Below the pieces are notes generated by a model, which saw only the letters and a program-made list of their open reading frames with translations, had not been told where the DNA came from and did not search any database. 64,000 nt of DNA, from positions 310,001-374,000 of the forward strand of contig NC_088939.1 of assembly GCF_033473495.1 (NCBI RefSeq), read 5' to 3'. Position 1 is the first letter of the stretch. The number at the start of each line of letters is the position of its first letter. The translations under genes were made by a program, and so were the position numbers. This stretch comes from Cercospora beticola. Taxonomy: Eukaryota > Ascomycota > Dothideomycetes > Mycosphaerellales > Mycosphaerellaceae. This document shows, piece by piece, positions 23,230-47,985 of the stretch.

Positions 23230-25015
23230 TCACGCCGACGCTGCAATCGGCTGAACCGTGTAGCCCTGCCACTTATCTACCGCTTCCTGCATCTTCTGCT
23301 TATACAACGGAAGTCCACCAAGGTAGATGAGATACTCTCTTCTCTTGCCAGGAATGTTGGCTCCCATGTACCAAGAATTCGTCTTGACTAGCAACGTTCG
23401 CTCCGCCAAAGCCAGCACGTGCTCTCGCCAGGCCTGCTCTGCCTCTGGACTTGATTCGATTGTTTCGATGTTCTCGCCTCTCTGCCGCGTGAGCAGCTGT
23501 AAGATGTATTCATTTTGTATCTCGATAAATGGCGGTCCGTTGGTCAGACTCGTTGGAGCTAGGCACGTTAGAATCGATAAAGTAGTGCTTAGAGCAGACC
23601 TCAAACTTACCTTGCGGACCATAGACCATGAAGAAATTGGGGAACCCATTAACTGTCATTCCGAGGTTTGTGATGATCCCATCTTTCCACTTCTCGTCGA
23701 GATCAATGCCATTGCGACCTTTGATTCCCATCGTTCGAAGCCCACCTGTGACTGCATCGTAACCAGTGCAGATAGCCACTATGTCAAACTCTCTTTCTTT
23801 CCCATCTTCGGTGACGATACCATTCTTGGTGAATTTAGCGATGGGAGAATTCGTGATCTCAACATGGTCCTTGTCACAGCATTCATAGTAGTCTTGCTCG
23901 AAGCTCGGTCGCTTGGTGTTGAGATAATATGGTGGCTCTAGAGGGGCGAGGAGGTCTCTCTTTGCCGGATTCGTGATTCGTGCTCGGGTCTTTTTGCACC
24001 AGAAGTCGTAAAGCTCGCGGTTAGCTTTTGCATCAACAAGGTAGTCTGAGTACGAGCTCATAGACCTATATCGTGTAAGTCAACTGTTTGACGAATCTGA
24101 AAGTTGTTCTCGAGTCATGTTTACCAGGTGAAGCCGCCCTGTTTCCAACCATGCTCCAGACGTGCTTCCCGTTTTTCCGGCGATTCATCAAACACTTTCA
24201 GACCAGAGTTGACGACAGGAAGACCAGAATTGGTCGACCGACATGCCTTGAATACATGAGGTATTTGCGGCAGATTGGCATAGATCTCGTCCTCCGAAAT
24301 CTGCCGTTGTCTCATGGGTACGGCGAAGTTTGGCGTCCGAATGAATTGTGTCACTTGCTGGCCTGCTTTGGCAGCTTCCTGCACGATTTGGATTCCTGTT
24401 GAACCGGCTCCGATGACGGCTACCTTTTTGCCATCGAGCGATACATTCTCAGGCCAGAGAGCGGAATGGTGGATCACGCCTTCGAAAAGTTCCCGCTGTG
24501 GCCACTCCGGAATGTGCTGTTTGAATGATGTACCAGTTGCAGCAACGAGCCAGCGGCATTTCCACACCTTTTCATCCGCTCCTGTCTTCAAATACCATCG
24601 ATTCTGCTCCTCGTTGTACTTTGCTTCCTTGACCCGCGTATTTAGATTGATATCACGGCGTAGGTCCCAGACATCTGCTACGTGCTGAAAATATCGGCGA
24701 AGCTCTGTGTCAGATGGAAACCGCTCTGTCCATTTGAATGTTTCATATATAGCTGGATCCGAGAAGCCGTAGTAAGGGAATTCGCAGTCGACTCTGGCGC
24801 CAGGGTATCTCTGTATAGTTCGTATCAGCCAATGGAAGAGCTTACTGCATTCAAAAAGGGAAACTCACATTCCAGCACCATACCCCACCGATTGTTGGAC
24901 CAGCCTCTAGTACTTTGACAGAGAAGTTATTCTTCCGCAGGTTATGCAGGAGATGGCAACCTCCAAATCCTGCACCGACCACAATCACATCTAGTTCTTG
25001 CTCCTCTGAAGGCAT
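23230..25015 (-). CDS. Baeyer-Villiger-type flavin monooxygenase 1
   Basis: Four exons (25015-24869, 24810-24125, 24065-23611, 23558-23230) give 538 residues. The FAD site is VVGAGFGG near the N-terminus. The Baeyer-Villiger fingerprint FEGVIHHSALWP fits FxGxxxHxxxW(P) exactly (about residues 158-169), followed by the NADPH motif VIGAGSTG. The C-terminus has NSWYMGANIPGKRRE, typical of the class. Such enzymes insert one oxygen next to a ketone to make an ester or lactone, using NADPH and O2. All three introns (58, 59, 52 nt) have GT-AG ends and close the frame. The gene is divergent to the alcohol dehydrogenase over 815 bp, which suggests shared control. Substrate cannot be read from sequence. 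Confidence 0.92.
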
Positions 25016-25830
25016 GCTTATGGGTTCGGTGGTATTTTGCAGGGATCAAGTCAGTATGAATCCGACACTCCCTGCGTGAGGTTTCCATATGTACACATTG
25101 ATAAACTTTCTGGGGCCGTCTCCGTGCGTGTGCCCCGCAGAGGGGAAATGGAACCGGTGATGACACAGACAGTGTAGGCGGTTGCCGGTTGTGCGGTAAT
25201 AATGCGGATATAAACCGTCAACCACTGTTTACGCCTGTCTTCGACTTCACATGCATTGAGTCGCTGAGCATGGGATTGTCTCGATGAGTGACATGAATGT
25301 CCACTGTAATGGCGTACTACATCCATACTTGGTCCGAGGTGTTTCCTGCCCTCTGCTTGATCACGCTCCTGCCCCTGAGATCATGCACTGGAATGAGGGA
25401 GAGAAGGCATGCGCATCGTGAGCCACTGCCAACACATCGCGTCTGGTCTGGCTTCCACATACTCGACGCAGCAAGAAACCACAGCTAGAATCGCGACACG
25501 TGCGTCTGAACAGACCGGTTCACATTCTTGGTATGGAGCACAATGCCTCAGCCGAGTTGATGCACTCAGGCTCGGGGGCACAGGCGGAATGCCACCGTCC
25601 ATAGACACGCATCCATCGGCCTGGGTCGCCGACTTCAGCTTCATTCTGTTCTCAGCGTAGTTGGTAAGACGTCAGCGCGGCTTGAGATCGGCGGGACGCT
25701 TTTCGGAGATAAGAACAGCTAGACCACGAAACACATTTCACCCCGCATCACAAGTGTAAGCATATTCCACTTCATCCATCTAAAATTCGAAGACATACTA
25801 TATTCGTGACATAGAGCATCGGACTCCACC
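25016..25830. promoter_or_regulatory. Divergent promoter region, monooxygenase 1 / alcohol dehydrogenase
   Basis: An 815-bp gap between two divergent starts at the left edge of the metabolic block. A gap of this size with enzyme genes on both sides is a natural place for binding by the cluster regulator. I could not define a specific Zn2Cys6 site with confidence. Confidence 0.4.
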
Positions 25831-27020
25831 ATGCCTGCCCTCACATCGCCCGCGTTCGTGGTACACGATGCCAAAGAAGACTTCAAGCTAGAAGAAATTA
25901 CTCTGGATGACATGCAAGACGATGAGCTGTTGGTCGAGATGAAATATAGTGGCATCTGCCACACAGACTTGGTGTTTCAGCAGGGGCAACTCACCATCTG
26001 CAAATATCCTGCTGTCTTTGGCCACGAAGGAGCAGGATGGGTCAAAGCTATCGGGCCCAAAGTCAAGAGCAAGAACGTACAGGTTGGCGACTTTGTGCTG
26101 CTCTCGATGAACTTCTGTCAAAAATGCAAGTTCTGCACGCGTGGTCACCCAGCGGATTGCACCGAAGGTACGCGGCTGCATTTGTTTGGTACTCGTGACG
26201 ATGGCTCCACAGCTGGCAAACTCTCTGGGTCGGGCGAGAGCGTTCGCTCGCATTTCTTTGGCCAATCGAGTTTCGCACGTTTCAGCTATGTGCACGAAAC
26301 ATGCGTTGTGAAGCATCCATATCCGGCCGACGAGGCAGCCAAGTTCGCGGCTATGGGTTGCGGATATCAGACAGGTAAGTGGTACCACGCTTGTGTTTAA
26401 CTCCTGGGGTTGAGAATTGACCATGAGATTCAGGTGCCGGCACCGTAATGAACATCCTAAAGCCTGAACCAGATAGCTCTATTGTCGTCTTTGGCCTGGG
26501 AACCGTCGGCCTTACAGCCTTGATGGCAGCCAAGTATCTGGGACTCAAGCAAATCATTGCAGTGGACATTCAGGAGCTGAAATTCCCAATTGCAAAAGAG
26601 CTCGGCGCCACAGACATTGTCAATTCACGTGGAATCGACATAGCCGCGAAGCTGAAAGAGTTGACTGGTGGAGTCGGGGTGGACTATGCTGTAGATTGCA
26701 CCGGTGCCACCACTGTGATCGAGGCGATGTTGAACAGCTTAGGGATGCGAGGCACAGCAGCTACAGTTGGTGTACCTCCTACCGGTGCTAAAGTGGAGAT
26801 CGATCCATTGGTGTTTTTACTTGGAAGCAGGAGATATGTTGGATGTCGAGAGGGCGACTCAGTACCGACAGAGTATATCCCAAAGCTGGTGGAAATGCAA
26901 CGGCAAGGTGAATTTCCTGTGGAGAAGCTGGTCAAGGTGTACGACTACAAGGACATGGAAAAGGCTCTGAAGGACTTGCATGATGGAACTGTTGTGAAGC
27001 CGGTAATTCAATGGTCATAG
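25831..27020 (+). CDS. Zinc-dependent alcohol dehydrogenase (aryl/alkyl-alcohol type)
   Basis: Two exons (25831-26374, 26434-27020) give 376 residues. Catalytic zinc ligands are Cys43 (GICHTDL), His65-Glu66 (GHEGAG) and Cys177 (MGCGYQTG). The structural zinc site is Cys96, Cys99, Cys102 and Cys110. The nucleotide fold is FGLGTVGL near residues 201-208, and an Asp at the end of the second strand (AVDI) favours NAD over NADP. The family oxidises primary or aromatic alcohols to aldehydes, or the reverse. The start is ATG in a good context (CCACCATGCC). The 59-nt intron splits the conserved QTGAG loop. The gene sits between monooxygenase 1 (divergent) and the dienoyl-CoA isomerase (convergent), consistent with an oxidation step linking the two. 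Confidence 0.93.
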
Positions 27021-27172
27021 TTGTTCAAACTGGTTTTACTCCGTAGCATAGCATGTCTGGGGAATGATAAGACATCATGAATGCAGCTATATAGCGCCGA
27101 TACAATTTGCGGTTTGTCAATTCTCTCCTACTAGAGTTTGAACTTGGTGCCGTATCGACGAATACAAGTATG

Positions 27173-28088
27173 CTACAGCTTCTCGAATGTAGGTTTCGTT
27201 TTACGGATGCCGCTCATCATAGCCTTTTTCACATCATCAGCCTGTACCATTGCACTGTTCCATGCGGCAGTATATAGCAGGCCATCCTGTACAGGACGAT
27301 CACGGCTAAAGTCCCACAGAGCTTTGGCACTCTGAACCGCTACGGGACTCTTTTCTGCTATTGTCTTGGCCAAGGCGAGCCCACCATCGATGAGCGCCTG
27401 CTTGGTATCGAAGACTTTGCTAACAAATCCCTGTGTAGCAGCTTCGGAGCCGTCAAAGGTTCGAGCAGTGTATGTGACCTCCTTCGCCCACGAATAGCTG
27501 ACTCCAATCTTAGGTAGTCGGCTCAATGTGCCAATATCTGGGGCGAGGCCGACATCGATTTCTCTTACGCATAGCTTCACATCTCTTGTGCAATACCGCA
27601 CATCTGCCGCTGTTGCGATGTCCAAGGCTGCCCCGTATGAAACTCCATGAAGTAGGCAAATCACGGGCTTTTCGCATCGCTCGATGGCATTGACCGCATT
27701 CTGATAAGCCAAAGCGTGCCTTCGAATTTTCCAAGATCTTCGAGCAAAGTCCTCCTTCTCGGATGAAGCACCTACAGGGCCAGAAGATGATGCTCCGCTC
27801 ACATCGAGGCCAGCCGAGAAGGCTTTGTCGCCAGCGCCAGAAAGCAGGACTACACGAACCTCTGGGTCGTGCGATAGCTGGTCGAACACTTTGGCCATAT
27901 TGTAGAACATGCTGATCAGGATTTAGAACAATCCACTGGTAATAGCCCTCGACCGTGTTTGTCTCCACTTACTCATGCTTTATGGAATTGTATTTCTTCT
28001 GATTATCGATCTCGACGTGAGCGACGTATTCGCAGGGGAAAGAGATATTGTAGTTGACGACATCATTATACTGAAGCGGTGATTCCAT
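27173..28088 (-). CDS. Delta3,5-delta2,4-dienoyl-CoA isomerase-like protein
   Basis: Two exons (28088-27973, 27911-27173) give 284 residues of the crotonase superfamily. The stretch DVRYCTRD...CVREIDVGLAPDIGTLSRLP matches ECH1-type isomerases. The three catalytic acids of rat ECH1 (Asp176, Glu196, Asp204) have counterparts at Asp136, Glu156 and Asp164 with identical spacing. The oxyanion regions are KAFSAGLDVSG and HGVSYGAALD. Such enzymes move paired double bonds during beta-oxidation of unsaturated acyl-CoAs. The C-terminus is FEKL; this resembles a PTS1 only loosely, because Glu at position -3 is not in the standard set. The gene is divergent to the acyl-CoA ligase over 456 bp. Confidence 0.88.
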
Positions 28089-28544
28089 ATCGAAAGTGAT
28101 GACACCCAATGCGCATGTGGTGTTCAATGGTGAAGTACAATTTGACTGATGGTTAGCTGTCTGAGCTGGGCATATGTGGCTTGGGGCTGGCGTTATTTCC
28201 GCACGTGAAGCTTCACTACGCGTCTCACTCTCTACGCGTCGGTCCACCACAGTGCAGCAGCGACTTAAAAATGGAAGGGTGCGAAATCTCTCGACTGGAA
28301 ACTCGACGTCATCGATAACATGCTTTCGGGAAATACAGATGGTGGCTTGAGGCGGCCACTTACAACTTCGGAAGACAAGAGCTCGGACCCTCATGGGCTC
28401 CCGCCGTATATCCGCAGCCAGATCCCACCCATATGCGGAAAGCACATCACATACTCGGCAAACCGACAAGTTCTTCCAAGTGCTGGCAGGACTACAATTT
28501 TGCCATCCTTCAACGCCTTCCCGTCATAGACCACAGTAGGCAAG
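28089..28544. promoter_or_regulatory. Divergent promoter region, isomerase / acyl-CoA ligase
   Basis: A 456-bp interval between divergent starts of two genes with linked functions. It probably carries common regulatory sites. None could be defined by eye. Confidence 0.4.
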
Positions 28545-30291
28545 ATGCCGTTCCTTGCCGAACAACATATGAGGTTTGGAGCCTGACTTCTTTGGAAACC
28601 TGCTTTGAGGGCTGATATCGTGTTACAGCATACCGGAGAAAGATGTACTGTCCTGGTATTTTGACTCGCCCGAATTCCCGCAAGACGACCCTGTGTATAT
28701 TGACGCTCTCGATACGTCAAAGTACTGGACCGCCAACCAATGTCGAAAGGCGATACGACAGCTAGCGGCGGGCTTTCGGCGGTTGGGACTGAAGAATGGT
28801 GACTGCGTTTGCATATTCGCCTTCAATTCGATGGACTACCCAGTTTTGGCCAACGGCATTATTGGGTTCGGGGGCGTCTACACCGGGTGCAATCCGAGCT
28901 ACACCACCTACGAACTTACACATCATCTTCGAAGTTCTCGGGCATCTGTTGTCATCGTGGAGCCGGAGCTCGTCAAAACTTGCTTCGAAGCAGCAGAAAA
29001 GGTAGGCCTTCCTCATGAGCGCATTTTGCTATTTGCAGATGCCGATAGCCATGGTCTAAAAAGCTGGAAAACCCTTTTCAATTGCGGAGAGATCGATTGG
29101 CCCCGATTCAGCGATAAAGCGACTGCTCAAAACACGACTGCAGCATTGCTCTACAGCTCAGGCACGACAGGTCTCCCCAAAGCTGCCATGCTCTCACACT
29201 ACAATCTGATCGCACAGCAAACATTATTCTGGGAATGGAAAGCCTCGCCGTGGAAGAAACGCCGTCTTGTTGCATTGCCAATGTTTCACGCAGCCACCGC
29301 ACCCTTGTGTCATTTTGCACCTTTGCATTCTGGTGACAAAATGTTTATTCTTCGCCGCTTCGAGATCGAGAGCTTCTTGAAGTGCATCGAAGTGCACCAG
29401 ATCAATATTGGCGCCTTTGTTCCGCCCATGGTGCACATGATAATGAACTCGCCTCTGTCCAAGAAGTACAGTATGAAGTCCATACGTCACGCTCATGCCG
29501 GCGCTGCACCGTTGGATGCGGGTAGCCAGGCCAGATTCAGAAAGCTTCTATCACCTGAAGCGCCCCTGACACAGGTATGGGGTATGACGGAGACGAGCTG
29601 CACCTGCAGTTGTTTGCCATACGAATACGGAGACGAGACCACCGGTTCGGTAGGACAGATGCTGCCAGATATGGATGTCAAGCTGTGCGACGATGACGGA
29701 AAGGACATTACCGCATTCAACGTCCGAGGAGAGATTTGTGTACGTGGACCTCTGGTTGTGCAAGGATACTACTTGAACCCTCAAGCGAACGCCCGCGATT
29801 GGGACGAAGAGGGGTTTTTCCATACTGGAGATATTGGTTGTGAGTGTACCTCCTGAAGAGACGTGATTCTGTGTGCTGACAATTCGATTCTTCAAGATCG
29901 AGATGCCGAGAGCAAGCTGTGGTACATCGTCGACCGCAAGAAGGAGTTGGTCAAAGTCCGAGGTTTCCAGGTCTCACCGAGCGAGATCGAAGGCGTCTTG
30001 CTGGAACATGCCGACATCGTAGACGCCGCAGTCATTGGCGTACCTGCTCGAAAAGCTTCTGATGGAGAAGAGCCAAGAGCGTACGTGACTTTGAGAGAAG
30101 GGTCGTCTCTGTCGGAAGACGCGATCCGAGGGCTGCTCAAGACACAACTGGCACACTACAAACAATGCGTTGGAGGCATCGTCGTGGGAACGGAGATCCC
30201 AAAGAGCCCAAGCGGCAAGATTTTGAAACGTTTGCTTGTCGAGCGAGCGAAGCAAGAGATGGCACGTGGAAGCCGTGAATCTAGGTTGTGA
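28545..30291 (+). CDS. Acyl-CoA ligase (4-coumarate-CoA ligase-like), peroxisomal PTS1
   Basis: Three exons (28545-28573, 28629-29839, 29897-30291) give 544 residues of the AMP-forming ANL superfamily. The tiny first exon encodes MPFLAEQHM and joins via a 55-nt intron to SIPEKDVLSWYF. Motifs: AMP-binding loop LLYSSGTTGLPKAAMLSH, QVWGMTETS, HTGDIGYRD (Tyr created at the second splice), VDRKKELVKVRGFQV, and catalytic Lys in PKSPSGKILKR. The enzyme activates a carboxylic acid to its acyl-CoA with ATP. The last three residues are SRL, a standard peroxisomal targeting signal type 1. The first intron donor (GTTTGG) is weak, but the resulting N-terminus is normal for the family. The gene is the entry step expected for the isomerase, dehydrogenase and thioesterase around it. 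Confidence 0.93.
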
Positions 30292-30739
30292 TGAACATCG
30301 AAGCGGAGTGAGCCGGTCTATTTCTTGGGAAAATCGTCGTTTGAGCGGGAACCCTAGCCTGGAAGCCTTCGGTCTATGAGGGATTGCATGCAGAGAGCGG
30401 CGATGACTGTAATAGAGCAATGCGGAAGGTGGTTGATACTCAGAAGACTAGAGCTGAATAGATATATGTAGCATGATGACACAAAGTGAGAGGACAAGCG
30501 ATTTATGCCAACCTGGGAACAATCAGCGTACAAGCGATGTGTAGCCAATGCTAGCTATAGCCAACGATAGCTATGCACTTCTTTTGATACCACTCCAAGG
30601 CGGAAATCCTCAACATGGCGTTTCTCGCTACGCCCGATGCGAAAGCATTGACGAACACAGCACCTCCTCGGGCGTCCAAGACTTCTTCAGGTTCGAGAAC
30701 AATGGTATACTCGGCGCATCTTCCACTGTCCTGAGGTGC
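30292..30739. other. Convergent intergenic region
   Basis: About 450 bp between the 3' ends of the ligase and the thioesterase. It should hold both terminators. No gene is seen. Confidence 0.45.
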
Positions 30740-31706
30740 TCAAAGCCTGGCGACCTTTGGTTCATGGAGTCGAAGCACACCCTAGGCTCACAATCAGCTT
30801 AGTGACAACGAAGGCTGACTACATCCATACCTCCTGTAGAACTGTTGCTATCAGTTCGCCGCTACCAGAAAATATTTTCTGGGATACCAGCGCTCGTCCG
30901 TCTCCCGCCCAAGGTGATTGCATTTCACTTCGGAGCCATTCGTCCGCACGGATAGGCTCGGAAACATGGTGGAAGTAGATTTTGTGATCGAGCGAGACCA
31001 TCATCTTGATGATATCTCCAGATCGGCCTTCTATAGCGAGAGATGGAGGCAGATTTTCGGGATCTCGCTCCCATCGTAGCCCGTGCACACGCGTCGCAGT
31101 GGGTAGAAAGTAATTGTCGCTCATATAGGCAATTGCGGCAAGATGGAGGGGAGATTGTTCGGACTTGATAGTGTGACGAGTTTTCATCCATTGGAAGACC
31201 TGTGTTTCATGGTTCCGCCCACGGTCGTCGGGTATTGCGCCAAGCTCACTACAGACATATGGACATATCTCTGCACCTCCACCACCCTTGACTGTACCAA
31301 GGTACCTTTCCACCTGCGCTTGGTCTTGAGACGAGGGCTTGAGTGGTCGGGGGCGTTGTTCCGGTCGAAAGTTGACGGTAGCAAGGAATGTGCATTGCTC
31401 TTCCTGTACCGCGCGAACTGTGCATACCGACCACTTGTTTTCCGACTGCAGTTTCTCAACTGTATAGTATATCGGAATGTTCGGCTTGCCTCCTTGCACG
31501 AATGCGCCATGCAGACTCGAGATAAGACTCCCAGAAGGCACAGTGGCCTGAGCAGCGAGCATGCAGTGAGCTACCACTGTGCCCCCATAGATTGATGGCG
31601 CTCCAGGTGGCAGCCAGGGAGATTCGGCGCTGACGAAGATGTCTTGGCCTACACGTTGAAGCTCGAGCAGGCTTTCCATGTTCAACGGTGTAGCCATTTC
31701 AGCCAT
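30740..31706 (-). CDS. Acyl-CoA thioesterase II (TesB-like), PTS1 made by splicing
   Basis: Two exons (31706-30831, 30781-30740) give 305 residues with a double hot-dog fold. Family marks include YGGTVVAHCMLAAQ, SLHGAFVQGGKPNIPIYYTV and the C-terminal catalytic motif SLDHKIYFH. The enzyme hydrolyses acyl-CoA to free acid and CoA. Without splicing the frame stops after VLQEVWM. With the 49-nt intron removed (GTATGG donor, GCTGAT branch region, CCTAG acceptor) it continues as EGVLRLHEPKVARL, ending in ARL, which fits PTS1. LQEGVLR also restores the usual family ending, so the splice is well supported. The frame is open upstream to 31769 but that codon is TTG, so ATG 31706 is used. Confidence 0.88.
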
Positions 31707-32114
31707 GGTCGTGCTGGCCCCGATTGTTTGCAGGATCTCCACATTGGGTTTTCCACGTGCGATGGGCAATCTTGAAAGAATGATTGGTCAAGCTGTGATG
31801 GAATTCATCTCGTGTGTGAGAAGGTGCTGTTTCTCGTTTTGCCTAGCGGGCCAACAGAGAAACATGGGTTATTCCCGACTTATTCCCTGACCGCGCACTG
31901 CTACGGTCTGCGGTTTGGCCATGCTATGTAGATTACAATCTGTATTGAAACCACACAGTAGGCCATCAGTCGTACGCAATAGTCATGCAGACGTCGCTTG
32001 CAAAGACAGTAAGTATATGAAAAGCTTTTGCACTCTGGCGCACCCAGCGGACCTTCGTCTGAAAAATGCCCTCCATCTCGATGCTGATATCCAGGATGTG
32101 GATGCATTTAAAAA
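31707..32114. other. Intergenic promoter region of the thioesterase
   Basis: About 400 bp between the thioesterase start and the stop of the first regulator. No other feature is seen. Confidence 0.4.
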
Positions 32115-34364
32115 TCAATTCGTTGTGGCCTGCGCTTCCGCCTGCAGCGTCTTGAGGTTGGCCAACCGCTCACGCTGAATTACCCGAAATTCTGGTGAAC
32201 CCTGCGCCCTCTCGAGCATACTAACATATCGGTCAAAGTCACTCTTCCCGAGCATGAGCTGCGGATCATCAACGACGATTCGTCGGCCGGCAATGCTGTT
32301 TTTCTTGTGAGTCGCCAGCATAGTTCCTATCACTGCCTGTGACGTATAACCATTAGCTCTTTGTTCGTTGGGAGGAGGGACGATGAAGATGCGAACTAAC
32401 CGCCATAGCATACGTGCGGCTGTGAACTGCAGCCCAAACGCGCATATGTCCCGGTGCGATTCGGACCAGTGCGAAGAAAGCTGTCATGCCCTCATGGGCA
32501 GCTCGAATGGCTCCGGAGGGGTCGCTGTGCACTCCTGCTTTTTCATTCCTGTCCGTGAAGACAAACATGAGTGCGTGAAAGTAAGTGCTGGCCACAGTAA
32601 CCATTTGGTAAAGCAGGCGGGGCGATAAATGGTCGAAACGAGACGGCGCTGTCTGGCAAAAGGGTTCCTCGAACCGAGAGTATAGCTCGCGAAACCTGGA
32701 GACTGTCTGACTCCTGTGTGCGGCATCGGTGCAAAGTGGCTTATGACTTGAGCGCGGAGTGCAGATAGTCTCTTGTATCAGCACAGAGCACTGCCACATT
32801 GCACGCACGTACGCAACGTCCGACGAGGCATAATCGTTAGAGGTCCGAAACGATTGTATGTCGTAGTGACTGACGTTAAAGTACGTGGTCGATGGAGGTC
32901 GTTTGAGACGCAGACATAGTAATGTGTCTTGTAACATGGCCGCTTGCCATGGCCGCAGTCGTACCTGCACAGTCTCATGATCCAGGTGCAGACCAAGAGC
33001 GTCGGGAATGCAGTTGAGTCTCAGGCGGTAAATTTGACGTTGCACAATGCCAGAGATCGTCCACGCGTCGGCAATGCGGTTGTTCGTTATCATGAAATGG
33101 CAGATCAAAATCATCGTCTGGACCGTCAATAGCGACCACCGGTTAAGGTAGCTTGAGATGCACAGACTCTGGTGGCAGCAACTCAGGTAAAATGAGGCCA
33201 TGTCCAGTTGAACGTCCGAGCCTTCTCTCAAGGTGGAGTCCTGTGCAGCGTTGGCGTAGACTGCGAACTGCAGCGCTATCTGTGCTGGGTCGTGTCTGTG
33301 TTTACCGTGATCGGGCAGATGCCAGAAACGTTCGACGTCCGCGACAAATGCATCTCGCGCGATGATGGGGTACACAGGATCCACGGTGTCGAAATACCGT
33401 TCGATCAGAACTTCGGCATCAGATCTGTTTGGCAGACTGGCCACGACCTCAACGAGGCCGCCTGCATCGGTCCAGTAGTTCTCTGCAGTTAACATTAGCA
33501 TGTATGTTGCTGGAATTGAAGAGCAGGATATACACACGAAAGGGGTGCTCAATACTCGCGGCGCCAAACAGGTTGAGCAATGCATGGCGTTCACTCGGCC
33601 GTGCTGAAAGTGGAGAGCCGATTATGGTGGGTGCTAAGGTGTCAATGACATTTGGGATTAAAGGCGTTACGTTGAGGAGCTGGTTCAACTCGTCTGGCTC
33701 ATCGTCTTCGATGGCCCCAAAATCCTGTTGGAAGTCGAGCTGATTGCTCTCATTGAGGGCAGGGATAGTAGCAGTGGTGCCAGAATCCGTAATGGCATTG
33801 ATTACGGCAACAGAAGAGCGGCGATTTGTATCTTCAATATTCACGATAGGTTGAAGAGGACGTTCCGTGGTGGTGTCGGTTCTCGAGCGTTTACGCGGAT
33901 TGATGGTACTCGCTGGATTGGCGGCAATGACATCTGCAATATGCGTGTACTGACAACGGGTCTGTCGCCGAATGCTTCCAGAAGGTCAGTAGTCTAGTCA
34001 TGATCCTGGACGAGCCAGAATAGAGAGGCGGGGCGTACCACGTGAAACAGGATGGACGTGCGCGATCGCACTTGGACTTGCGCTCGACACACTCCAGACA
34101 ATTCAGCGTAGGCTTGTTGCGCTTCTTACCGCGAACAGCAGGTTTTTCGTTGGCGGTAGAGGTGCGTCGGGTGCTGCTGCTGCTGTTGCTGTTCACATCG
34201 GCGCCGGACTGTGCAGAGCGGTCGGCTCTGAGGACGATGACAGTATCATCGTCTCCGGCCGGGTTTAGACCATGATTGAGGCCGAAGCTCGTGTTATCCA
34301 TGGACATCTCGCCATACCAGCCGGCAATAGCGGTGTGCGGTAGGCAGGCGTCGACTTCGCTCAT
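32115..34364 (-). CDS. Zn2Cys6 transcription factor, likely cluster regulator
   Basis: Four exons (34364-34039, 33974-33538, 33482-32401, 32336-32115) give 688 residues. The zinc cluster is rebuilt across intron 1: CLECVERKSKC, DRARPSC, then FTCIRRQTRC, which gives all six cysteines with Cys-X2-Cys-X6-Cys spacing in both halves. A basic stretch (RGKKRNKPTLN) precedes it. The remainder is the fungal-specific middle-homology region (GGLVEVVASLPNRSDAEVL; YFDTVDPVYPII; SLLTVQTMILICHFMI). The last exon has a short helix-rich tail. Introns of 64, 55 and 64 nt close the frame exactly. ATG 34364 is the first true start, since the longer frame begins at GTG. The position inside the metabolic block, next to a paralogue, makes it the best candidate for the pathway activator (inference). 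Confidence 0.92.
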
Positions 34365-34910: not shown

Positions 34911-36559
34911 TCAGCCAACAGTGCCTGCTGATAGAAGCTCGCGATACCCCCAAAGCACGTTGAGGTATTCCTGCTTCTTGACTTCAAACGCGAACGATCC
35001 GCGGGCGTGGTGCAACAAGTCCATGTATCGTTCGATATTTCCCACAGCTAGTTGCAGCCAAGGTTCTTCCTGTCCACTCGTCTGCTCCTTGGCCGTAGAG
35101 AGTACCTTGCAGATCATGAGCTGTTGACGCGGGATATCAAAGTCAGCGAGTGTAACAATTACAGTATGCAGCGTGGAGACCATTCAAGGACTCACCGTCT
35201 GCGCATAAGCGCGAGTGTTAATAGGCGTCATCATAGTCAGATACTGTCGATCTTGATTCACCAAGTCGAAAAATGCAGACATCGCCTTGTTGGATGACTT
35301 GAGGGCGCCGCGCCAATCTATGCCTACGCCAGTCGCTGGATTCTGAGCCAAATGCAGCATTGTGAAGGCAAGATTGTAGTTGCTTGCAACCATAATCATT
35401 TGCCTCCATACACGGCCTTGCTGTCCGCGGAAGTCGATGGAGTGAAAAGGCGGGTCCAAGTTGTCGTAAATACTCTGCAAGTCTGCCAGGAGCCCTCCTT
35501 TGTGCGCGGCATCTCTGGCAATCGGCCTCCCCAACGCCGTTGGAATACATATGTTCTTCTGCATGAATGTGGAGAACTGCCACATGGCTCGCTGGTAGGC
35601 CACATCCGCTTTATTGTTGAGATATGCAATGTCGACGTGAGCTCGTTCGGAAAGCAGCATTTCTTCGAGCCGACTGTCCGGGTTGTTCTCGCCGTCATCG
35701 ACGGGCCGAAGTAAGCTAACATCGATGCTATGGTGACAGGATGCGGGAACCAGTTCGAGAAAATAGGAGAGCGAGACATCTTGGAACATGAATGCCTGCC
35801 ATAGGGCGTACCGGAGGTGCTTTTCCGAAACCGATGCGCTCGCGGGAGGAGGAAGATGCAACTCCAGGCCATAAACGATTTTCTGCAGGATGCCCGAAAA
35901 TGTCCAACAATCGGCAGTTCTGGTACTGGTGACAAAATAGTTGCAAATAAGAATTAGTACTTGAATCGTCTCAAGAGACCACTCGCTTAAAAACGAGACG
36001 AGGCACAGAGCCCGATAGCAGCACGACAGATACGTCTCGGGAACGGACGTGAAATCAATTGCTGTCGGGTCTTGCACGTATATGTGACCCGAAGCGAGCA
36101 CAATGAAAAGTAGGGCGACCCATGTTGTATTGAATTTGCCTCTGTGCCATTGTGTGAGCGTTTTCGTACGGAACTCATCGCGTAAAATGGTTCTGGCGTA
36201 GCATACCTGTCTATGGGCGGAAGAGCCCAGAACTCCTCGAAGCGGGATCGAAACAAGTTCTCCGGAATAATTGGATACAATGGATCCACGTACTTGAAGA
36301 AGGCGGTGACAAGAATATCTGCTTGCTCTCTGCTCGGTATGGCAAACAGAACCTCGTCGAGGCCACCCTCTACGCTCCAAAAATTGCGGAAAGGGTATGC
36401 CTCTTGCCCGCCAGTGCCATTCTCGTCTGGAGGCGTCCAGGGATTGCCTGAGGGTGCTAAAGAGCCGTCGGAGCCCACGAAGGCGTTACTTGGCATGGAA
36501 GACTCGGCCATGGAAACGGAGCAGGATCGCCCGGAGGAGGGCGGCGCAGATTGGTCCAT
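34911..36559 (-). CDS. Fungal transcription-factor middle-homology protein lacking a zinc cluster
   Basis: Three exons (36559-36207, 36141-35196, 35120-34911) give 502 residues. The whole chain is paralogous to the neighbouring regulator. Compare GGLDEVLFAIPSREQADIL, YVDPLYPIIPENLF, ETYLSCCYRALCLVSFLSEW and TIQVLILICNYFVTSTRTAD with its counterparts. No Cys-X2-Cys-X6-Cys unit occurs in the model or just upstream. The first ATG of the frame starts directly in a Ser/Pro-rich linker (MDQSAPPSSGRSCSV). An in-frame 28-codon upstream ORF (36676-36590) ends at TAA 10 codons before it. Either the DNA-binding domain was lost, making this a possible dimer partner or co-regulator, or an upstream exon is damaged. 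Both introns (65, 75 nt) have normal sites, so the remaining body looks intact. Confidence 0.85.
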
Positions 36560-37327: not shown

Positions 37328-38001
37328 ATGTTCACCTCAACACTGGTCGCCTGCGCCGCCGTGCTCGGCTCTGCTGTTGCAGCACCAGCACCTGTCCCAC
37401 AATTCAGCAGCGGCACTTGCACTGCAGAGCGAAGAATCGCCATCTCTGGCCAAGTCCCATTCGCCTATGCTCAACCGGGTGTCACTGCAGTCCGCGAGGC
37501 CTTCAGAGACATTCCCTTTGGTGTGCCAGACCTCGACGGCTCTTGTGTCACACAAATGTAAGTTGTTGCCGACAGCCAGAGCTCAAGACGGGTGTTGACA
37601 ATTCGCAGCTGGCCAAACGGTGGTGGCCCAATCACTGTGGGAGTTACTGGCAACGGCGTCGTCAACTTTGGCGTCGCAACTCGTCAAGCGTTCTCCTCGG
37701 TCACAGGCCAATATGTTGACTTCCCTCAAAACGGCACGACTGTCATCTACACCAATGTGACCTGTAAGCGCTCACCTGATCGTCTGACCTTGATAAACCA
37801 TTACTAACGCTGCCAAAAGTGGGTGTCAGCTCCATTGTCCCTGCTCCCGTCACCTTCTCTGGCCAAGTCTACCTTGATTTCAACACCGACTGCCGAATCA
37901 CTGCTGTTCGTGCTTTCGCTCAAGTCCCTACATATATCGGCGGCCGCCCGACCGACCTTTGGCAATTGCTGCCAATCCCACCTACCCCTGGCATTATTTA
38001 G
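37328..38001 (+). CDS. Secreted protein of unknown function, 188 residues
   Basis: Three exons (37328-37557, 37609-37763, 37820-38001). The N-terminus is a clear signal peptide (MFTSTLVACAAVLGSAVA, then APAPVPQ). Introns of 51 and 56 nt use GTAAGT and GTAAGC donors. The second has a perfect TACTAAC branch site. The mature protein has three cysteines, two N-glycosylation sequons (NGTT, NVTL) and repeated beta-rich segments (ITVGVTGNGVVNFGV; VTFSGQVYLDF). It has no membrane segment or GPI signal. I do not recognise a family. It could be a cell-wall or apoplast protein or an effector, and it may be unrelated to the surrounding pathway. Confidence 0.82.
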
Positions 38002-38400: not shown

Positions 38401-39916
38401 TTACAGCTTGGTATAGACTTGTCTTTGGAAGTTCTTGAGTAACTGGCGGATCGCGAGATCGAAGAGCACGTCTTCACTGCCACCAGGGACTCTCGCACCG
38501 TGTATCTCGCTCGCGATTTTCGACACCAGTTCTCCCTGGCCGGTCGCAGTGTATCCATTGCCTCCAAATAGCAGCTGCGCACATTGTCCGCATTCGTTCA
38601 AAACAAGCCCGGCCTTCGCCTTTGCAAGAGCGGTAAGGCCGCCGATCTTTACATCTGCCTCCTCTTTCTTGAAATGGCACATCTGATAGGCGAAGCTCCT
38701 GCAGAAGTGTTAGTTCGGTGGCTTCAATATGGAAATGGGAGGGAGTCTTACTCGACCCAAGCCCAGAGTGTTTCTAACTCTGCGCCTGCTTTTGCAAGGC
38801 GGTGTCGAACGACGGCTTGGTTGATGAGGGGATTTCCAAAGGCCTCTCGCTTCATTACCCACTCGAATGCTGCTGCCAGTGCCACACGAGCCTGTGCTGC
38901 CACAAGTGTCGCGATCGTCATTCGTTCGTGGTTAAAGTTTGTCTGCAACTCGTCAGCGCCCACCCTCCAACATCGATACGCCGACTTACCATAATGTATT
39001 TCATGCCCTGTCCCTCTTTGCCCAGCATGTTCTCCACGGGAACTTTGACATCATCCAGCTCAATGAACGTCGTCCCGCTGGCCTTTCCACCAACGACTGG
39101 AATTTTGCGCATGCTGACACCTTCTGTATTCTTCAAAGGCACAAGCAGGACGCTTAGGCCTCCAGGACCTTCGCCGCCCGTTCTTACACACATCGAAGCA
39201 TAATCGCTCCACATTCCATTTGTGATCCACTTTTTCGTACCGTTCACAATGAAATGCTTTCCGTCCTTGCTCTTCTCGGCTACTGTTTGCACGTTCGCGA
39301 CCTGTTTGAAATTTGTGAGCTGTGATATCTCAAGCTGGGCTGGATGAACTCACATCAGACCCTGCGTCCGGCTCTGTAATGGCAATACATATTCTTGTTC
39401 GCCCAGTCAAGAGGCCAGGAAGGAACCGTTTCTGCAATTCTGGGCTGCCGAAGTGAACAATGGGTGGAACTCCAAAAGCGAAGCCTGTGGTGATTGCAGT
39501 CACTGGACCCATAAGGCCGCAACGCATCATCTCGGCTGAGTAGATCATCACATGCATGTAGTCGAATTCCTCCACCGCGACCGGTCCAACATGATCAATG
39601 CCAACACTTTTTAACCATTCGACTGGGAGAGGAGCTGGTAGGTTGGGAACCATCATATTATGTTTCGCAAATGTGTCTGTTCAGCACAGCTACCCAGTCA
39701 GTGCGTGATTGTATAACGTTTTCAGGAAAACATGCCGTATACATGCGACGGAACTTCTCCATCTCGTTCCCATTGCAGCGCGTGTGGTGTGAAGTGTGCG
39801 TCGATAAATTCACGGCAAAATCGCTGCCATTTCCAGTGTGATTCCTTGTAATACGGTGAGGGATGCTTCAGGAGCCACGGTGGCTCGCTGAAGGGAATGG
39901 GCTCGTTAGTAGACAT
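38401..39916 (-). CDS. Acyl-CoA dehydrogenase
   Basis: Five exons (39916-39736, 39676-39354, 39301-38990, 38942-38752, 38698-38401) give 434 residues. Family marks include CIAITEPDAGSDV, KKWITNGMWSDYA, GMKYIMTNFNHERM and QLLFGGNGYT. The enzyme introduces a double bond between C2 and C3 of an acyl-CoA using FAD. Introns 2-4 have GT donors. Intron 1 fits only if it starts with GC (TACG|GCATGT) and ends CAG; this GC-AG reading makes the total length divisible by three and joins SHVYD to TFAKHN without a stop. The C-terminus is TKL, near but outside the strict PTS1 set, so a peroxisomal location is possible but unproven. Confidence 0.88.
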
Positions 39917-40442: not shown

Positions 40443-41463
40443 CTAGCATCGTCCCAGCAAAGCACAAGTCGCATTGACGAGAGTGCCCGTCAACGGATCT
40501 CTGAGCTGGAACACATCTTGCACCAAGTCTCCCGTAAGCTCAGGCAATTGCTCTCCAAACTCTCCCGGGTCAGTTAGTAGCATGTTGTTGGCCATAATTC
40601 CTAGTGTTGCAAAATTGGTTTCGACGGCCGGTTTGGTCCATCCCAGCTCGTATGGAAGGCGTTCTTGCTCTACAATCGGGTCAGCGTTGAGATCACATCT
40701 CGCAAGGTGACTTAGTGCCCACCGAAGAACGACCTGACGTAAGAAATTGGAGCTTCGCCGGTGATTGGGTTACCCATAACACTCTGGTAAAGACTGCTTT
40801 CGACGAGACCAAGCACAAGCTGTCGAGGTCCGTAGATCAGTTTATCGCCGTTTAGCTGCCGTTGTCTATCGACACGAGCCCACTGTGCGTGCATTGCCAC
40901 AGGTAACGACGTTCGTTCCATGCCCTCGTAAAAGGCTAGGACTTGGTTGAAGATATCCTGGTTGAAGTTGAGGTTGCTCCCTTGGTAGAAGTCTTGACGA
41001 GAAAGGCTGACGTCGTGCTCAATGGGAAAGTTGTGAGCACGGAGTTGATCCATATTGAATGTCCCAGCGAGAGGATTGGGATTGGAGACCGTCGCGCCTT
41101 GACCGACGACAAGACCGAAGTCCAAGCCAACGTTCAATCCCTCCTTCAGTCCCTGTGCGACTTGAAGCGGCGTGATGTTCTTTCCGCTTCGCGGAATATA
41201 ACATACTGTCATCAGTACCCTTCTTGAGTGCTATTAATTAAGTCCGATCATAAGCTCACCATGGTTTGCTGCAGAGTTGATTCCAGGGCAAGGAGATCGT
41301 ACTGTAGGGAATATCGGTCAGTCTCAGCGTTCATGGTGCAAAGAATATCATTACCATCATTGGGCCCTGGAGGAATGTATTCGTGACCCGCAGGAGCAGC
41401 CTGGCCAGCAGCTAGGGCCAATATCGAAGCCAGGGAAAAAGCTGACGATCCTTGGAACAACAT
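40443..41463 (-). CDS. Secreted heme-thiolate peroxidase / short unspecific peroxygenase
   Basis: Four exons (41463-41355, 41301-41260, 41205-40723, 40669-40443) give 286 residues. The N-terminus is a signal peptide (SSAFSLASILALAAGQ). Splicing rebuilds HEYIPPGPNDVRSPCPGIN. The PCP motif at about residues 40-42 supplies the cysteine heme ligand. The EHD motif (residues 113-115, IEHDVSLSRQDF) is the one seen in the short peroxygenase group. The C-terminal exon encodes ERLPYELGWTKPA and FATLGIMANNML. Such enzymes use H2O2 to oxygenate or halogenate organic compounds outside the cell. An isolated 42-nt exon carries the catalytic Cys, so simple ORF calling would miss it. Residues 50-53 are HVCY, where relatives usually have HGY. 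Confidence 0.88.
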
Positions 41464-42771: not shown

Positions 42772-43141
42772 ATGAGGGCCTCAATCGTCCTCGTCTTCAT
42801 CGCAGCTCTGGCCCCTGCTACATTGGCGCAAATGGGTACCTCCGGAGTACGCACTGCTCCAAACACATATATCTGATATCAGCATTCACTTACACATTTG
42901 CAACTGCGTTAGAAATGCCGCCAAAGATGGAATGACTGTTTCACAGGATTCTATCCTGGCACACCATGTCAGCTTGTAAGTGCGGCAGCTTCGTCGCTGA
43001 ACAGAAAGGGAAGCGAAACAAAGGGCGTTATACTAACATCAACTTATGTTGTAGGGCAGCGAATGCAATGTTGACGGCAACCCATGTACATTGGTGGATC
43101 CTCTGGGAACTGGTGATTTTTCTTCTGCACATTGTGCTTGA
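42772..43141 (+). CDS. Small cysteine-rich secreted protein, 59 residues
   Basis: Three tiny exons (42772-42835, 42947-42975, 43055-43141). The signal peptide is MRASIVLVFIAALAPATLAQ. The mature peptide of about 40 residues begins MGFYPGTPCQLGSEC and ends SSAHCA, with four cysteines, an even number that could form two disulfides. Introns are 111 and 79 nt. The second carries a perfect TACTAAC branch site and a GTAG acceptor, strong support for a real gene. No single exon is long enough to be called alone. Size, secretion signal and Cys content are those of fungal effector-like or antimicrobial peptides. Function is unknown. An AT-rich degraded stretch lies about 1.1 kb downstream. Confidence 0.7.
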
Positions 43142-45436
43142 GGGGATTACTTCGCAGCGGCGATATGAGATGGCCTAGGCTTATAAAGGAAATGGCGTGC
43201 TTGCAAGAGGTCGGGTCACGTGCGATACCAAATGCCATACACCATCGGCTAGCCCATAAGCTCGCAGGAGATCTTGCAATTCTCATCTTTGGTGTGTCGA
43301 CGCATGGGGCCGATCCAGACCGCACGCACAAACACAGGAGAGGCGAAGCGTAGCGTGCTAGACAGCGGGGGGAACAGCACTTGTGGCTCTCCAAAGTTTG
43401 GACTGGGTCTTTGCCAGTGCAAAGCACAACTTCATTCAATTGTGGGTGCGGAGAAGCCTGCCTTTGCACACCAGCAGCACCTCTCCCGAGACGCATCCTA
43501 CTCCTGTTCTTTTCAAATTCTAGCACTAATCCTGAAGTTGCTTGTGCCTCGCTCTACCTCAGCGTGCGTGTCCTGCTTCCAAGGCCGAAGCCATTGCGCA
43601 TCTCACTGACCACTTCCTCGGATCTAATAATGCTCATGAAGACTGTGCGACTGTATTTCCTGTTGAATGTCACAAAATTTTGTCGACTTGGTGTGTACTG
43701 ACAGTCGACCTTTCGATGTCTTTCGGGCGAATCTTGGCGACAAGGCCTCCTCCGAGAATATCAAGCAGATCGTCCAAACCACCATCTCCGAATGCTGGCC
43801 TGGGGAGCTTTGTGCAGTCTCGCCCTTGGTATCATTGTGGAGCACGATTACAGCGCTGCAGGTGGCGTCCGGATGTCGACGGATGCCGATGTCGAATGTG
43901 TCGCGTGGTCTGCCCTGTAGAAGGGCGTCATTAGCTGGCAAGGTGTCAGCATGCATCTTTGAGAGCGAAAGATGCTTGCGTAAACAGAGGACCTGCTCTC
44001 GCAATTGATCGATTCAGTGCTCGGGTCGTAGTATGCGATTGGCCCTTCACAGATTTGTATCAAACGCCAAACCGACGTTTGAGACCTCGATGTTATAGAT
44101 GAACTGCTATTGCAATCAAAGCAGGAACCTGGTACCTAGTACGATGGCCAGAGCATTCCAGATGTCCCTTTGCTCGAGGTCAACGTGACTGTAGGAGTTT
44201 CTGCATCATGTACAGTATGAAGGACATGCTAGCAAGGGTTATAAGAGAGTAAAGCAAATGCTAAGCGATTGGTAAGTAGCTATATCTAGTACATATAGAC
44301 AGTTGGTAAATACTATGGTACAAGTTAAGTCGTCTAGCGTAACAAGAGTACGCTTGATAGTTCTCATAGCTTTAGTACATAGCTACTCACTAAATCTGAT
44401 ACTATTATACTTATTATACGGCTTAGTAGATATAAAGTACTTTTAATCGTTAACGTAGTAAGCGGAAGCTCTCGTGTCCAATGTCTACTTAGATCGGTTA
44501 TTGTTCTGTTAAGCACTTAGATAGATTGCTAAAGTTATATAGGAGATCCTCTTACCCCTCGTTTTACTATCGTGGGGAATGGAAGTAGAGCCGTGGTTTG
44601 ACTTCTTCTTACAACTTCCGCAAGGTGGTGTAAAACTCAGGTGCACTGTCGATCCGACAGTAACCACGCGTCTCCCATGCAGTTTCAGGAGATCGACACT
44701 CTTAATGCCGCTGTACACCAATTACTCGCAGTATGTTCTCAAGACGAAATGCTCTAGGACCTACAACGTGGTCTTTGCTGCATAGCCGCGCTTGTCTGCC
44801 AAGCACCTGGAAATCGAAGCTTCCATTTGTCTCCGCAAGGTCCTGCTCGCTACGAGAACGTCGAGTGTATCAGATAGAATCATGACATATTCATTTTGAA
44901 ACCGCAGGCAGTCCAGAAACTATACATAATACATGCTCGTGATCACAACGAGGCCGATTTATGTATCGATCCCTCTCCATAGTTCCTGACTATATCCTTG
45001 ATGCTCAAATGCCACAATTTTCAACCTCTATTTCCGATCACACACCGCGTAGTGGCCTGGAGGCTCGAATGTCATTAGTAACAGAGCCACGCAAAATACA
45101 CTCCAAGATCCCCGCTGCCGCTATCATTCCGCTCTCAGTTTCTCTGGGAATTCAACGCAACAATGCATGATCCCGAAAAGCCAATGTTGGTATCTTACAA
45201 TTCTACGCGATAGCCATTTGCCGGCTTTAGAGGGAGAAACACTGCTATTGACATGCAGTCTTGTGATACACTGTCGTCATCTAGCAAAATGGTTGAAAAT
45301 AAAATTGTACAATAAGTGAGTCTTCATCGATGATACCAGTGTTGACACGAACGATTAAGCCCCAGCGTCACAGTTCGATGTTATCGTCTACAATTTCAAC
45401 AGCACTATGCTTGCATCCTGAATGCAAATACATCCT
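43142..45436. other. Gene-poor stretch with AT-rich block
   Basis: About 2.3 kb without a supported gene. A minus-strand frame at 43624-44004 has no recognisable domain. The middle part is AT-rich and is listed separately. The region looks like repeat-derived or decayed sequence beside the small secreted protein gene. Confidence 0.4.
44230..44545. repeat. AT-rich, TA-dinucleotide-rich block (RIP-like remnant)
   Basis: The base composition changes sharply to many TA steps (for example ctatatctagtacatatag and gatactattatacttattat) with stops in all frames. This is the look of repeat-induced point mutation on an old transposon copy. No terminal repeats or recognisable protein remain, so the source element cannot be named. 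Confidence 0.45.
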
Positions 45437-45892
45437 TCAATCTTCCGCGTGCGTTACTACCTCCCAGTTGACTCCAACAAACGGATCCAATATATACGCA
45501 GCATAGTATGTTGGAGCAAATTGCCTCCGAAATCCAGGAGGACCGTTGCAAATTCCTCCGGAAATGATCGCAGCGGCATGAAATGCGTGGACTTGTTCTC
45601 GATCTTAGATTACCATCAGCGACGCACCAACCATATGCATTGAAGAAGACTTACTCTCAGCACGAAAGCAAACGTGCGACTCCTTGAGTATGTGATCAAA
45701 AGTCTTCTCATCCAGGTCTTCCGAAGTTCCATGGAGCCAGAGGAATGGGTATTTGTCGCCAATACCAGTCCAAGAAGGGCTGGCGCGATAGACTTCTCGC
45801 AGGCCGATGGAAGCGAAGGCGGTGACCAGGAAGTTGACCAGCTGATCGAGCTTTACTTGAGGGACGACGAAGGTATGGTGGTCAAGAGGCAT
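45437..45892 (-). CDS. VOC/glyoxalase-superfamily protein
   Basis: Two exons (45892-45655, 45603-45437) give 134 residues. The fold is marked by MPLDHHTFVVPQVKLDQLVNF at the start, FLWLHG in the middle, and after splicing AENREQVHAFHAAAIISGG and CNGPPGFR, ending with YYAAYILDPFVGVNWEVV. This is the layout of the small fungal glyoxalase/bleomycin-resistance/dioxygenase-like group. Enzymes of this superfamily use a metal for varied reactions, so no reaction is assigned. The 51-nt intron has a GTAAGT donor and a CTAAG acceptor and closes the frame. An alternative ATG at 46006 adds 38 residues rich in Arg and Ser that could serve as a mitochondrial presequence. The family start is 45892. Confidence 0.82.
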
Positions 45893-46318
45893 GTTGAGCT
45901 GGACAGATGGGAACGGTCTGATGAAAGGCGAGATAGATTGTTGGGAAGCGTGTGAGCGAAGGACAGTATTTGTACGAGTAAACGTGCGGCCCGGAAAGCT
46001 GGGCATTGAAGGCTAAAGCGCCCAGGGGTCTATTTCAAGGCAACAGCTGATTAATTCAGATCGCGGTCTGTGATTAGAACGCGACGGCGATCGATCGGGA
46101 TGCGCAGGTTCGTGTCGGAGCTTTTCAGCGTCTCAATTACATGGCTAAGCACAGTTCTACCGTCGAGGAATGGTCAAAGAAAGCTCTGAAGCTGAGACTC
46201 AGTCTACCGCATTTTGGCCCAACTCATGGCATATCTACAATGCTACCTTCGTCTAAGGCTGCGCTAGAGCAGGGATCTCTGAGCCTGACACATACATGCC
46301 TCCTCAACGTCCAACTCA
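45893..46318. other. Intergenic, promoter region of the VOC gene
   Basis: About 425 bp, including the optional N-terminal extension of the VOC gene up to 46006. Nothing else is seen. Confidence 0.4.
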
Positions 46319-47985
46319 TCACCCACTCGGACTCGTGAACTTCAAACTCGCCCAGCCGCCGAAAACCTCCTTGTCCAGCCAGGACCTCCAATTCGGAATG
46401 CCACCAAAGTACATCAAGATTTCCGGCTTCTTGCCAGGAACATTTGCTCCAACGAACCAAGAACGAGCCGCAGCAGCAGGCTTTGAGACAAGCAGAAAGT
46501 TCCACAAGTCACTGACATGTTGCGTCCAAGCAGCAGCAGCCTCCTGCTTGACATCAACTATCGAGATCTGATGCTCTCGCATGTAAGCGACGACTTTGCC
46601 CATCCAATCAACTGCGACTTCTACTGTGGTCGGCTGGTTCCCAACGCTACTGTGCGGTCCATTGATAATGAACATGTTTGGGAACTCTGGGACTAGCACC
46701 CCTGCAAAGGTCTGGAGACTCTCGGCCCAGGCGCCCTTCAGTGACTTTTCCGAGCTACCTTGGATGTCGATCCTGCCCAATGCACCTGGTCCAGCATCGA
46801 AGCCTACGGCGAAGATGATGATGTCTACTTCATGTTGGGTGCCATCAGCCGTGACCAATCCCTTCTCGCGAACTTCGACATCTCCACCGCTAACGTCCAC
46901 GGGTTTAACATTAGATCGGTTGAAGGTCTTGTAGTATCCGTGCTCGCAGGTGGGTCGTTTCGTACCAAAAGGGTACGAAGGAGATAGCAGATCTGCGGTA
47001 GCCTGGTCGTCGACAATAGCGTGGATCTTGTCGCGCACATATTGCGAAATGATCTCATTCGACTCAGGATCTGTGTAAATGTCCGCGAACGAGTGTAATT
47101 GAAAAGGAAGAAATCCACTTTCCCATCCCTTGTCAAGGTATTGGCGGATAGTTGCTGGATCTAGTCCTTTCATAATCTTACTTGCAGCAACGGAGTCATG
47201 ACCTACAGGATTGTTGATTGCCAGCTTCCACGACTCTTCGTTGTGACTTTTTATCTCGGCAGCTCGGAATTCATCGATGCCTTCATTGCGTCCCGGAATG
47301 GCGTAGCATGGCGTGCGTTGGAGGACAAGCAGCTGTTTCACTGCAGGCGCAAGCTTTGGGACGAGCTGAACGCCTGTAGACCCAGTGCCCACGATCGCAA
47401 CCCGTTTTCCTTCCAGTGAGACACCTTGAGATGGCCAATTGGAAGATTGATAGACCTTGCCTGTGAATCTTTCGAGTCCTTTGAAAGGTGGATCCCTTGG
47501 CACTGATAGTGTTCTTGTGGCCGGAATAAAGTAACGGCAAGTAAAAGATCGGCCCGCTGCAGTTTCGATGGTCCAGACCTGATGCTCATCGCTGTATTTT
47601 GCAGACACGACTTGTACGTTGAACTGAATACGCCGTCGCAAATCGTAGTGATCTGTGTCCAGTCAGTCTCGCCACAACGGCTGCAATACAGCATATTTAA
47701 CTTACCAACAACACGGGCAAGGTAACTTTGAATTTCCTGCTGCGTGGGATACTTCTCAGAGTAGTCCCACGCGTCCGCCACTTCTTTTGAGAACTTGAGG
47801 GTGTAGATTGATGCTTCGCCATCGGATCTTGCGCCAGGGTATCGATTCCACCACCAGGTACCACCGACATCTGATGCTGCATCGAAACAGACCATTGAGA
47901 TGCCGAGTGCCTGAAGTTCTAACATTGTCCTGATACCGCCGAAACCTGCGCCAACGACGACTGCGTCGTAGTCGGGAACTGCCAT
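46319..47985 (-). CDS. Baeyer-Villiger-type flavin monooxygenase 2
   Basis: Two exons (47985-47706, 47652-46319) give 537 residues. The FAD motif is [13 protein letters not shown], and [15 protein letters not shown] is the class-typical loop. NADPH motif: [12 protein letters not shown]. The Baeyer-Villiger fingerprint reads [12 protein letters not shown]. Phe, Gly, Trp and Pro are in place but the central His is Gln. The C-terminus has [13 protein letters not shown]. The 53-nt intron (GTAAGT, CTGAC, ACACAG) joins ARVVD to HYDLRRR. The longer open frame begins with TTG, so ATG 47985 ([12 protein letters not shown]) is used. It is only moderately similar to monooxygenase 1, so the two are not a recent duplicate. 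It marks the right edge of the metabolic block. Confidence 0.9.

Follow-up and report, generated by a model that had tools for sequence, protein, structure and literature searches.

The closest solved relative of the Baeyer-Villiger monooxygenase (BVMO) at one end of the Cercospora beticola gene set discussed here is PDB 5j7x, matched with 534 bits over residues 7-525. It is a single enzyme, deposited under the title of a putative dimethylaniline monooxygenase, and we take it to be a BVMO of Aspergillus flavus. The set also encodes an unspecific peroxygenase (UPO), which shares the Peroxidase_2 family (E ~5e-31) and the PCP-EHD-E motifs, as defined in PMC6417270, with the short MroUPO-type enzymes (PDB 5fuj and 7zbp); unlike theirs, its gene sits inside a peroxisomal acyl-CoA gene set. 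A described cluster with similar genes is that for the Alternaria ACT-toxin, which, according to PMC10715145, lies on a small chromosome that is dispensable and includes polyketide synthase (PKS), enoyl reductase and nonribosomal peptide synthetase (NRPS) genes, features that we did not find here, and has an acyl-CoA ligase, enoyl-CoA hydratase/isomerase-type genes and a regulator in common with our locus. That locus lies on contig C5 of a 36.07-Mb genome in ten contigs, within a window of 64,000 nucleotides (C5:310001-374000), the whole stretch that was analysed. Positions below are those of the window unless a contig is named.

Catabolic gene clusters are already known as a kind. What appears new here is a secreted UPO and a small secreted protein (SSP) paired with peroxisomal acyl-CoA genes, a combination for which, as for this cluster itself, we found no description among the matches listed from the open-licence literature. 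By a modest margin over even chances, we read the locus as a gene cluster that is inherited together and serves the catabolism of an oxidisable hydrophobic substrate, with a core at 23230-41463 and an end perhaps as far as 47985. A terpenoid, or an alicyclic or branched ketone or alcohol, would be a candidate substrate. Several pathway enzymes and regulators stand side by side, on the evidence of gene models and Pfam, and we regard the joint set as beyond chance because the same families recur together on another contig, C1, above what random placement yields.

Gene content of the locus

Our gene models came from a home-written splice-aware predictor and were corrected by hand; 28 were predicted in the window, twelve of them in 23230-47985. 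A preliminary description of this DNA had named eleven genes, and all eleven are open, spliceable models, ten of them backed by Pfam (the VOC-like gene is the exception). It had overlooked the twelfth, the SSP gene, and therefore counted two divergent pairs where there are three (BVMO1/ADH, isomerase/ligase and TF2/SSP). Models were compared with public proteins for the thioesterase, SSP and BVMO1: the first two are 100% identical, over their full length, to C. beticola proteins, and BVMO1 is 93% identical to a protein of C. berteroae. The genes are listed here, with any C-terminal type 1 peroxisomal targeting signal (PTS1) and with one flanking gene at the end.

23230..25015, minus strand: BVMO1, type I BVMO, 538 aa, four exons (Pfam, PDB search)
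25831..27020, plus strand: ADH, zinc alcohol dehydrogenase, benzyl-alcohol-dehydrogenase-like, 376 aa (PF08240, PF00107)
27173..28088, minus strand: delta3,5-delta2,4-dienoyl-CoA isomerase of crotonase fold, 284 aa, ending EKL (PF00378)
28545..30291, plus strand: acyl-CoA ligase, 4-coumarate-CoA-ligase-like AMP-binding enzyme, 544 aa, PTS1 SRL (PF00501, PF13193)
30740..31706, minus strand: peroxisomal acyl-CoA thioesterase, 305 aa, PTS1 ARL (PF20789, PF02551, PF13622)
32115..34364, minus strand: TF1, Zn2Cys6 regulator (PF00172, E 5.5e-6) with a PF04082 domain (E 3.9e-6)
34911..36496, minus strand: TF2, PF04082 regulator (E 9e-14)
37328..38001, plus strand: SSP, small secreted protein, 188 aa, 100% identical to CB0940_06836 of C. 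beticola
38401..39916, minus strand: ACAD, acyl-CoA dehydrogenase, 434 aa, five exons, ending TKL (PF02771, PF02770, PF00441)
40443..41463, minus strand: UPO, secreted heme-thiolate peroxygenase, 286 aa (PF01328, E 1.8e-44), signal peptide by eye
45437..45892, minus strand: VOC-like small protein, 134 aa, one intron, labelled by eye only
46319..47985, minus strand: BVMO2, BVMO-fold flavoprotein, 537 aa, nearest the 6a37 group in the PDB search
22396..23178, plus strand: carboxylesterase/phospholipase (PF02230, E 1.4e-24)

The fingerprint of type I BVMOs is FxGxxxHxxxW. In BVMO1 the segment FEGVIHHSALWP fits it, and alignment with the PDB match places the fingerprint His where it should be; with its homology to BVMOs, this makes BVMO1 a type I enzyme. 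The best PDB matches of ADH are 5tnx, a zinc alcohol dehydrogenase of unspecified kind (E 1.7e-82), and the benzyl alcohol dehydrogenase 1f8f (E 7.2e-80).

The acyl-CoA enzymes form the other half of the set. The three best PDB matches of the isomerase are all dienoyl-CoA isomerases (E 1.6e-59 to 3.8e-56), and its ALD, VREID and LAPD align with VD, VKEVD and LAAD of the best of them, thus keeping the Asp, Glu and Asp that are catalytic in the rat delta3,5-delta2,4-dienoyl-CoA isomerase. The presence of such an enzyme points to an unsaturated chain or a ring-derived acid. In the PDB search the ligase falls nearest to 4-coumarate-CoA ligases, the thioesterase nearest to acyl-CoA thioesterase II, and ACAD among acyl-CoA dehydrogenases without favouring any one type (best E 2.6e-43). 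The ACAD gene might be thought to have a broken first exon, a possibility we ruled out: a GC-AG intron of 59 nt at 39677-39735, the first in the gene, joins it in frame with no base changed. Microbodies with an acyl-CoA dehydrogenase in place of an oxidase are known in fungi. The SRL and ARL ends that had been claimed for ligase and thioesterase can be read from the gene models, that of the thioesterase after a 49-nt intron; SKL ends are found in 53 of the best 120 of its 229 homologues.

Two products are secreted. The UPO carries the PCP and EHD motifs and the catalytic Glu of the short, MroUPO-like enzymes, and its best PDB match is an artificial UPO (E 2e-40), followed by deposited UPOs from 1.8e-36. 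SSP has no Pfam or NCBIfam match; with low confidence, modelling suggests an NTF2/SnoaL-like fold.

The two regulators had been called paralogous, and a search with TF1 does match TF2, at 32-39%. The first ATG of TF1 is uncertain (34364, 34307 or 34301), and Pfam was run on a translation begun at 34343; in TF2 no zinc cluster was seen by eye. Further TF1-like regulators lie at C5:1306869-1310689, apparently as a tandem pair, and at C7:2505745-2511713, near ADH and crotonase matches. These loci possibly mark more small clusters.

Inspection of the 28 window models by eye turned up no synthase for polyketides, peptides or terpenes, and the ligase gave the only adenylation-domain match among the matches listed for the window. 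The preliminary description had proposed a peroxisome-linked oxidative gene set with no core synthase. On domains, the VOC label apart, on the two PTS1 ends and on the missing synthase it was right.

Relatives in this genome and in other species

We searched the C. beticola genome with nine window proteins, and the resulting match lists are lower bounds. The matches converge on C1:3,738,302-3,763,023, a paralogous cluster that we count as our strongest evidence. Compared with the window, the ligase there is 58% identical, ACAD 64%, UPO 63% (over 221 residues), the thioesterase 31% and SSP 29%; a crotonase and a related Zn2Cys6/PF04082-type regulator are shared as well, and so are PTS1 ends, the C1 ligase ending SRL as in the window and the C1 ACAD ending SKL. 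What we know of the region comes from gene models, Pfam on five of them and the search matches. It adds a fusion of HMG-CoA lyase and crotonase, a thiolase, a tandem-SDR protein and, recognised by eye, MFS genes, and it further adds another zinc dehydrogenase and an OYE-like fragment that falls slightly short of the Pfam cut-off. The fusion is one open frame, C1:3738302-3739897, which ends AKL. Gene order is unlike that of the window, and there is no BVMO among the matches listed for the region. Just downstream of the C1 peroxygenase, a short frame (C1:3752184-3752375, minus strand) looks by eye like the start of another SSP.

How often would such a gathering arise by accident? With the loci outside the window placed at positions drawn uniformly and the best 30-kb stretch scored in each of 5,000 runs, random placement reached a maximum of five families, in three runs; the real C1 stretch holds seven of the nine, a count that includes weak matches (E<=1e-3; for SSP E<=0.1) and takes its families from the lower-bound lists.

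A second region, C7:627,258-654,307, holds the closest paralogue of BVMO1 in the genome (58%), together with a ligase (31%), an SSP relative (44%) and a crotonase. It differs in having three BVMO-like genes, an FMN dehydrogenase and a TauD dioxygenase, with an aldehyde dehydrogenase and a PF04199-type cyclase recognised by eye; UPO, ACAD and thioesterase are not found there among the genome-wide matches listed. A further SSP relative (48%) lies at C5:776 kb, and about 1 kb from it is a gene that encodes a product with an SKL end and looks, by eye, like a nitronate monooxygenase.

Beyond C. beticola, a tree of BVMO1 with 20 proteins chosen from the best 120 of 4,764 matches places it, with support 1.0, in one group with those of C. 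berteroae, Fulvia fulva, Dothistroma septosporum and Zymoseptoria tritici; the C7 paralogue falls outside this group. The C. zeina thioesterase bears the tag BST61_g6406 and SSP the tag BST61_g6409; judged from the tag numbers alone, this leaves room for two genes, as TF1 and TF2 take here. In Dothistroma septosporum, relatives of BVMO1, the thioesterase and SSP are each on a 2,595,548-bp contig, taken as one scaffold. The C. zeina locus tags and the one Dothistroma scaffold would fit a conserved linkage. In Zasmidium cellare, SSP and a BVMO that is C7-like by the tree are each on a 652,580-bp contig, again taken as one scaffold.

A possible pathway and its rivals

If the locus is a catabolic cluster, its order of steps, as we infer it, would begin outside the cell, where the secreted peroxygenase would insert oxygen into the substrate, possibly with the help of SSP. 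Inside the cell, ADH would convert an alcohol to a ketone, and BVMO1 would turn the ketone into an ester or lactone by inserting oxygen. An esterase would open this product. The PF02230 gene, whose end lies about 50 bp from that of BVMO1 and whose nearest paralogue in the genome (51%) is on C2, may be that ester or lactone hydrolase, its membership of the pathway being uncertain. The PTS1 ligase would activate the resulting acid with CoA, ACAD and the dienoyl-CoA isomerase would shorten it in the peroxisome together with the core beta-oxidation enzymes, and the PTS1 thioesterase would release CoA and acyl groups that have stalled. Control of the gene set would fall to TF1 and TF2.

Several observations weigh against this picture. 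No PTS1 stands at the end of BVMO1, ADH or BVMO2, and the TKL of ACAD and the EKL of the isomerase are weak signals; among the window models there is neither a thiolase nor a hydratase/hydroxyacyl-CoA dehydrogenase. The preliminary description had counted two Baeyer-Villiger-type monooxygenases, of which BVMO1 stands in full and BVMO2 keeps the fold without the FxGxxxHxxxW fingerprint, the alignment showing Gln in place of the His; we predict weak BVMO activity for it, or none. Within Septoria linicola, and likewise within Neohortaea acidophila, the contigs that carry the SSP and BVMO matches differ in length (the tree puts the Septoria BVMO with the C7 side), and no Zymoseptoria or Fulvia thioesterase is named among the best 120 of 229 matches. 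Finally, neither promoter words nor CGG-pair spacings of the C5 and C1 cluster promoters rise above the level of shuffled sequence, so a shared binding site finds no support in this promoter test, which set 7- to 10-mers of 16 cluster promoters (nine from the window, seven from C1) against 12 other window promoters. Two candidates were rejected in it. ATTCCCG occurs in six of the 16 and none of the 12, and a 7-mer did as well (in at least six) in 56 of 60 shuffles; the best spacing, CCG-N17-CGG, with five sites against none, was equalled or beaten in 39 of 100.

The rival that survives best is a biosynthetic or tailoring cluster, in which these enzymes would trim and activate an acyl group that becomes part of a secreted metabolite, with the core synthase encoded elsewhere in the genome. 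The ACT-toxin offers the precedent, its acyl-CoA ligase, hydrolase, hydratase and acyl-CoA synthetase genes (ACTT1, 2, 3, 5 and 6) serving the acyl moiety of the toxin (PMC10715145), and our locus has dedicated regulators of its own. We nevertheless think this rival unlikely. The window models include no synthase, the C1 relative adds degradative steps (the thiolase, the tandem-SDR protein and the HMG-CoA-lyase/crotonase fusion), and a thioesterase with a secreted peroxygenase suits the use of an external compound. The likeness to Alternaria toxin loci that the preliminary description had seen falls away as well: no ACT-type PKS or NRPS appears in the 28 window models, by eye, or in Pfam of 18 distinct window proteins, and the locus is on a 5.18-Mb contig (C5, 5,177,381 bp, with PEX12 and Dicer next door) rather than a small dispensable chromosome. 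Another part of that interpretation, the peroxisome-linked oxidative set, is supported, and both the C. zeina and Dothistroma linkage and the C1 and C7 paralogues fit it.

Somewhat less probable again is a detoxification cluster that inactivates a plant defence compound or a fungicide-like molecule, with beta-oxidation only completing the disposal. C. beticola is a plant pathogen, known for sugar-beet leaf spot, there are two BVMO genes, and the UPO and BVMO families have broad substrate ranges. Against this, two PTS1 CoA enzymes, ACAD and a dienoyl-CoA isomerase suggest chain shortening, although the data fit either use.

That common catabolic families have merely come to lie together without joint function, BVMO2 and the VOC-like gene above all, we consider highly improbable: the families are large (at least 60 other loci for the acyl-CoA ligase, 35 for BVMO and 29 for ADH), the last two genes follow about 4 kb in which no gene was called and no promoter word or spacing is shared, but seven families meet again on C1, where 5,000 random placements never brought together more than five, and there is the linkage evidence from C. 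zeina and Dothistroma.

For the catabolic cluster we favour, the extent at the distal end is another matter. BVMO2 and the VOC-like gene are uncertain members. Both lie past 41464-45436, a stretch of some 4 kb that has no called gene and separates them from the UPO. The preliminary description had spoken of a VOC enzyme; the gene is open, and the family finds no backing, with no Pfam match at E<=1 and a sole, irrelevant NCBIfam match (E 0.11). A transposon in the gap was considered and rejected, 42300-45400 having no second copy in the genome. Within it, 44200-44500 is a patch of GC 0.36 with dinucleotide ratios like those of repeat-induced point mutation (TpA/ApT 1.78), in otherwise unique DNA without a called gene. 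No repeats of 25 bases or more were found within 36000-50000, and the window has no Rfam match.

The neighbourhood holds other genes of note. A PEX12-type peroxisome biogenesis gene (20330-21763, minus strand; PF04757, E 1.3e-47) lies two genes from BVMO1, a closeness that is probably coincidence. By eye, a gene at 13593-16392 (minus strand) resembles the ergothioneine biosynthesis gene Egt1. On the far side, an EthD-family protein (TIGR02118; 58582-58914, minus strand) is encoded beside a PF04199 putative cyclase (59391-60639, plus strand), to which the PF04199-type gene of the C7 cluster region is similar by eye.

What the gene set may mean

A bolder proposal is that Mycosphaerellaceae carry modular catabolic clusters, in which a UPO and an NTF2-fold SSP oxidise the substrate in two steps outside the cell, as the front end of a dedicated peroxisomal beta-oxidation encoded in the cluster, with BVMO modules swapped in and out. 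We offer this tentatively, as an idea that may well turn out wrong. If true, it would assign unspecific peroxygenases a definite role in nutrition. Of the twelve UPO-like loci in the genome, weak matches included, two are inside peroxisomal acyl-CoA clusters, each with an SSP-type gene, which makes that role testable. Catabolic clusters may duplicate and exchange their oxidative modules, and in this one the BVMO and UPO genes come with a predicted metabolic setting.

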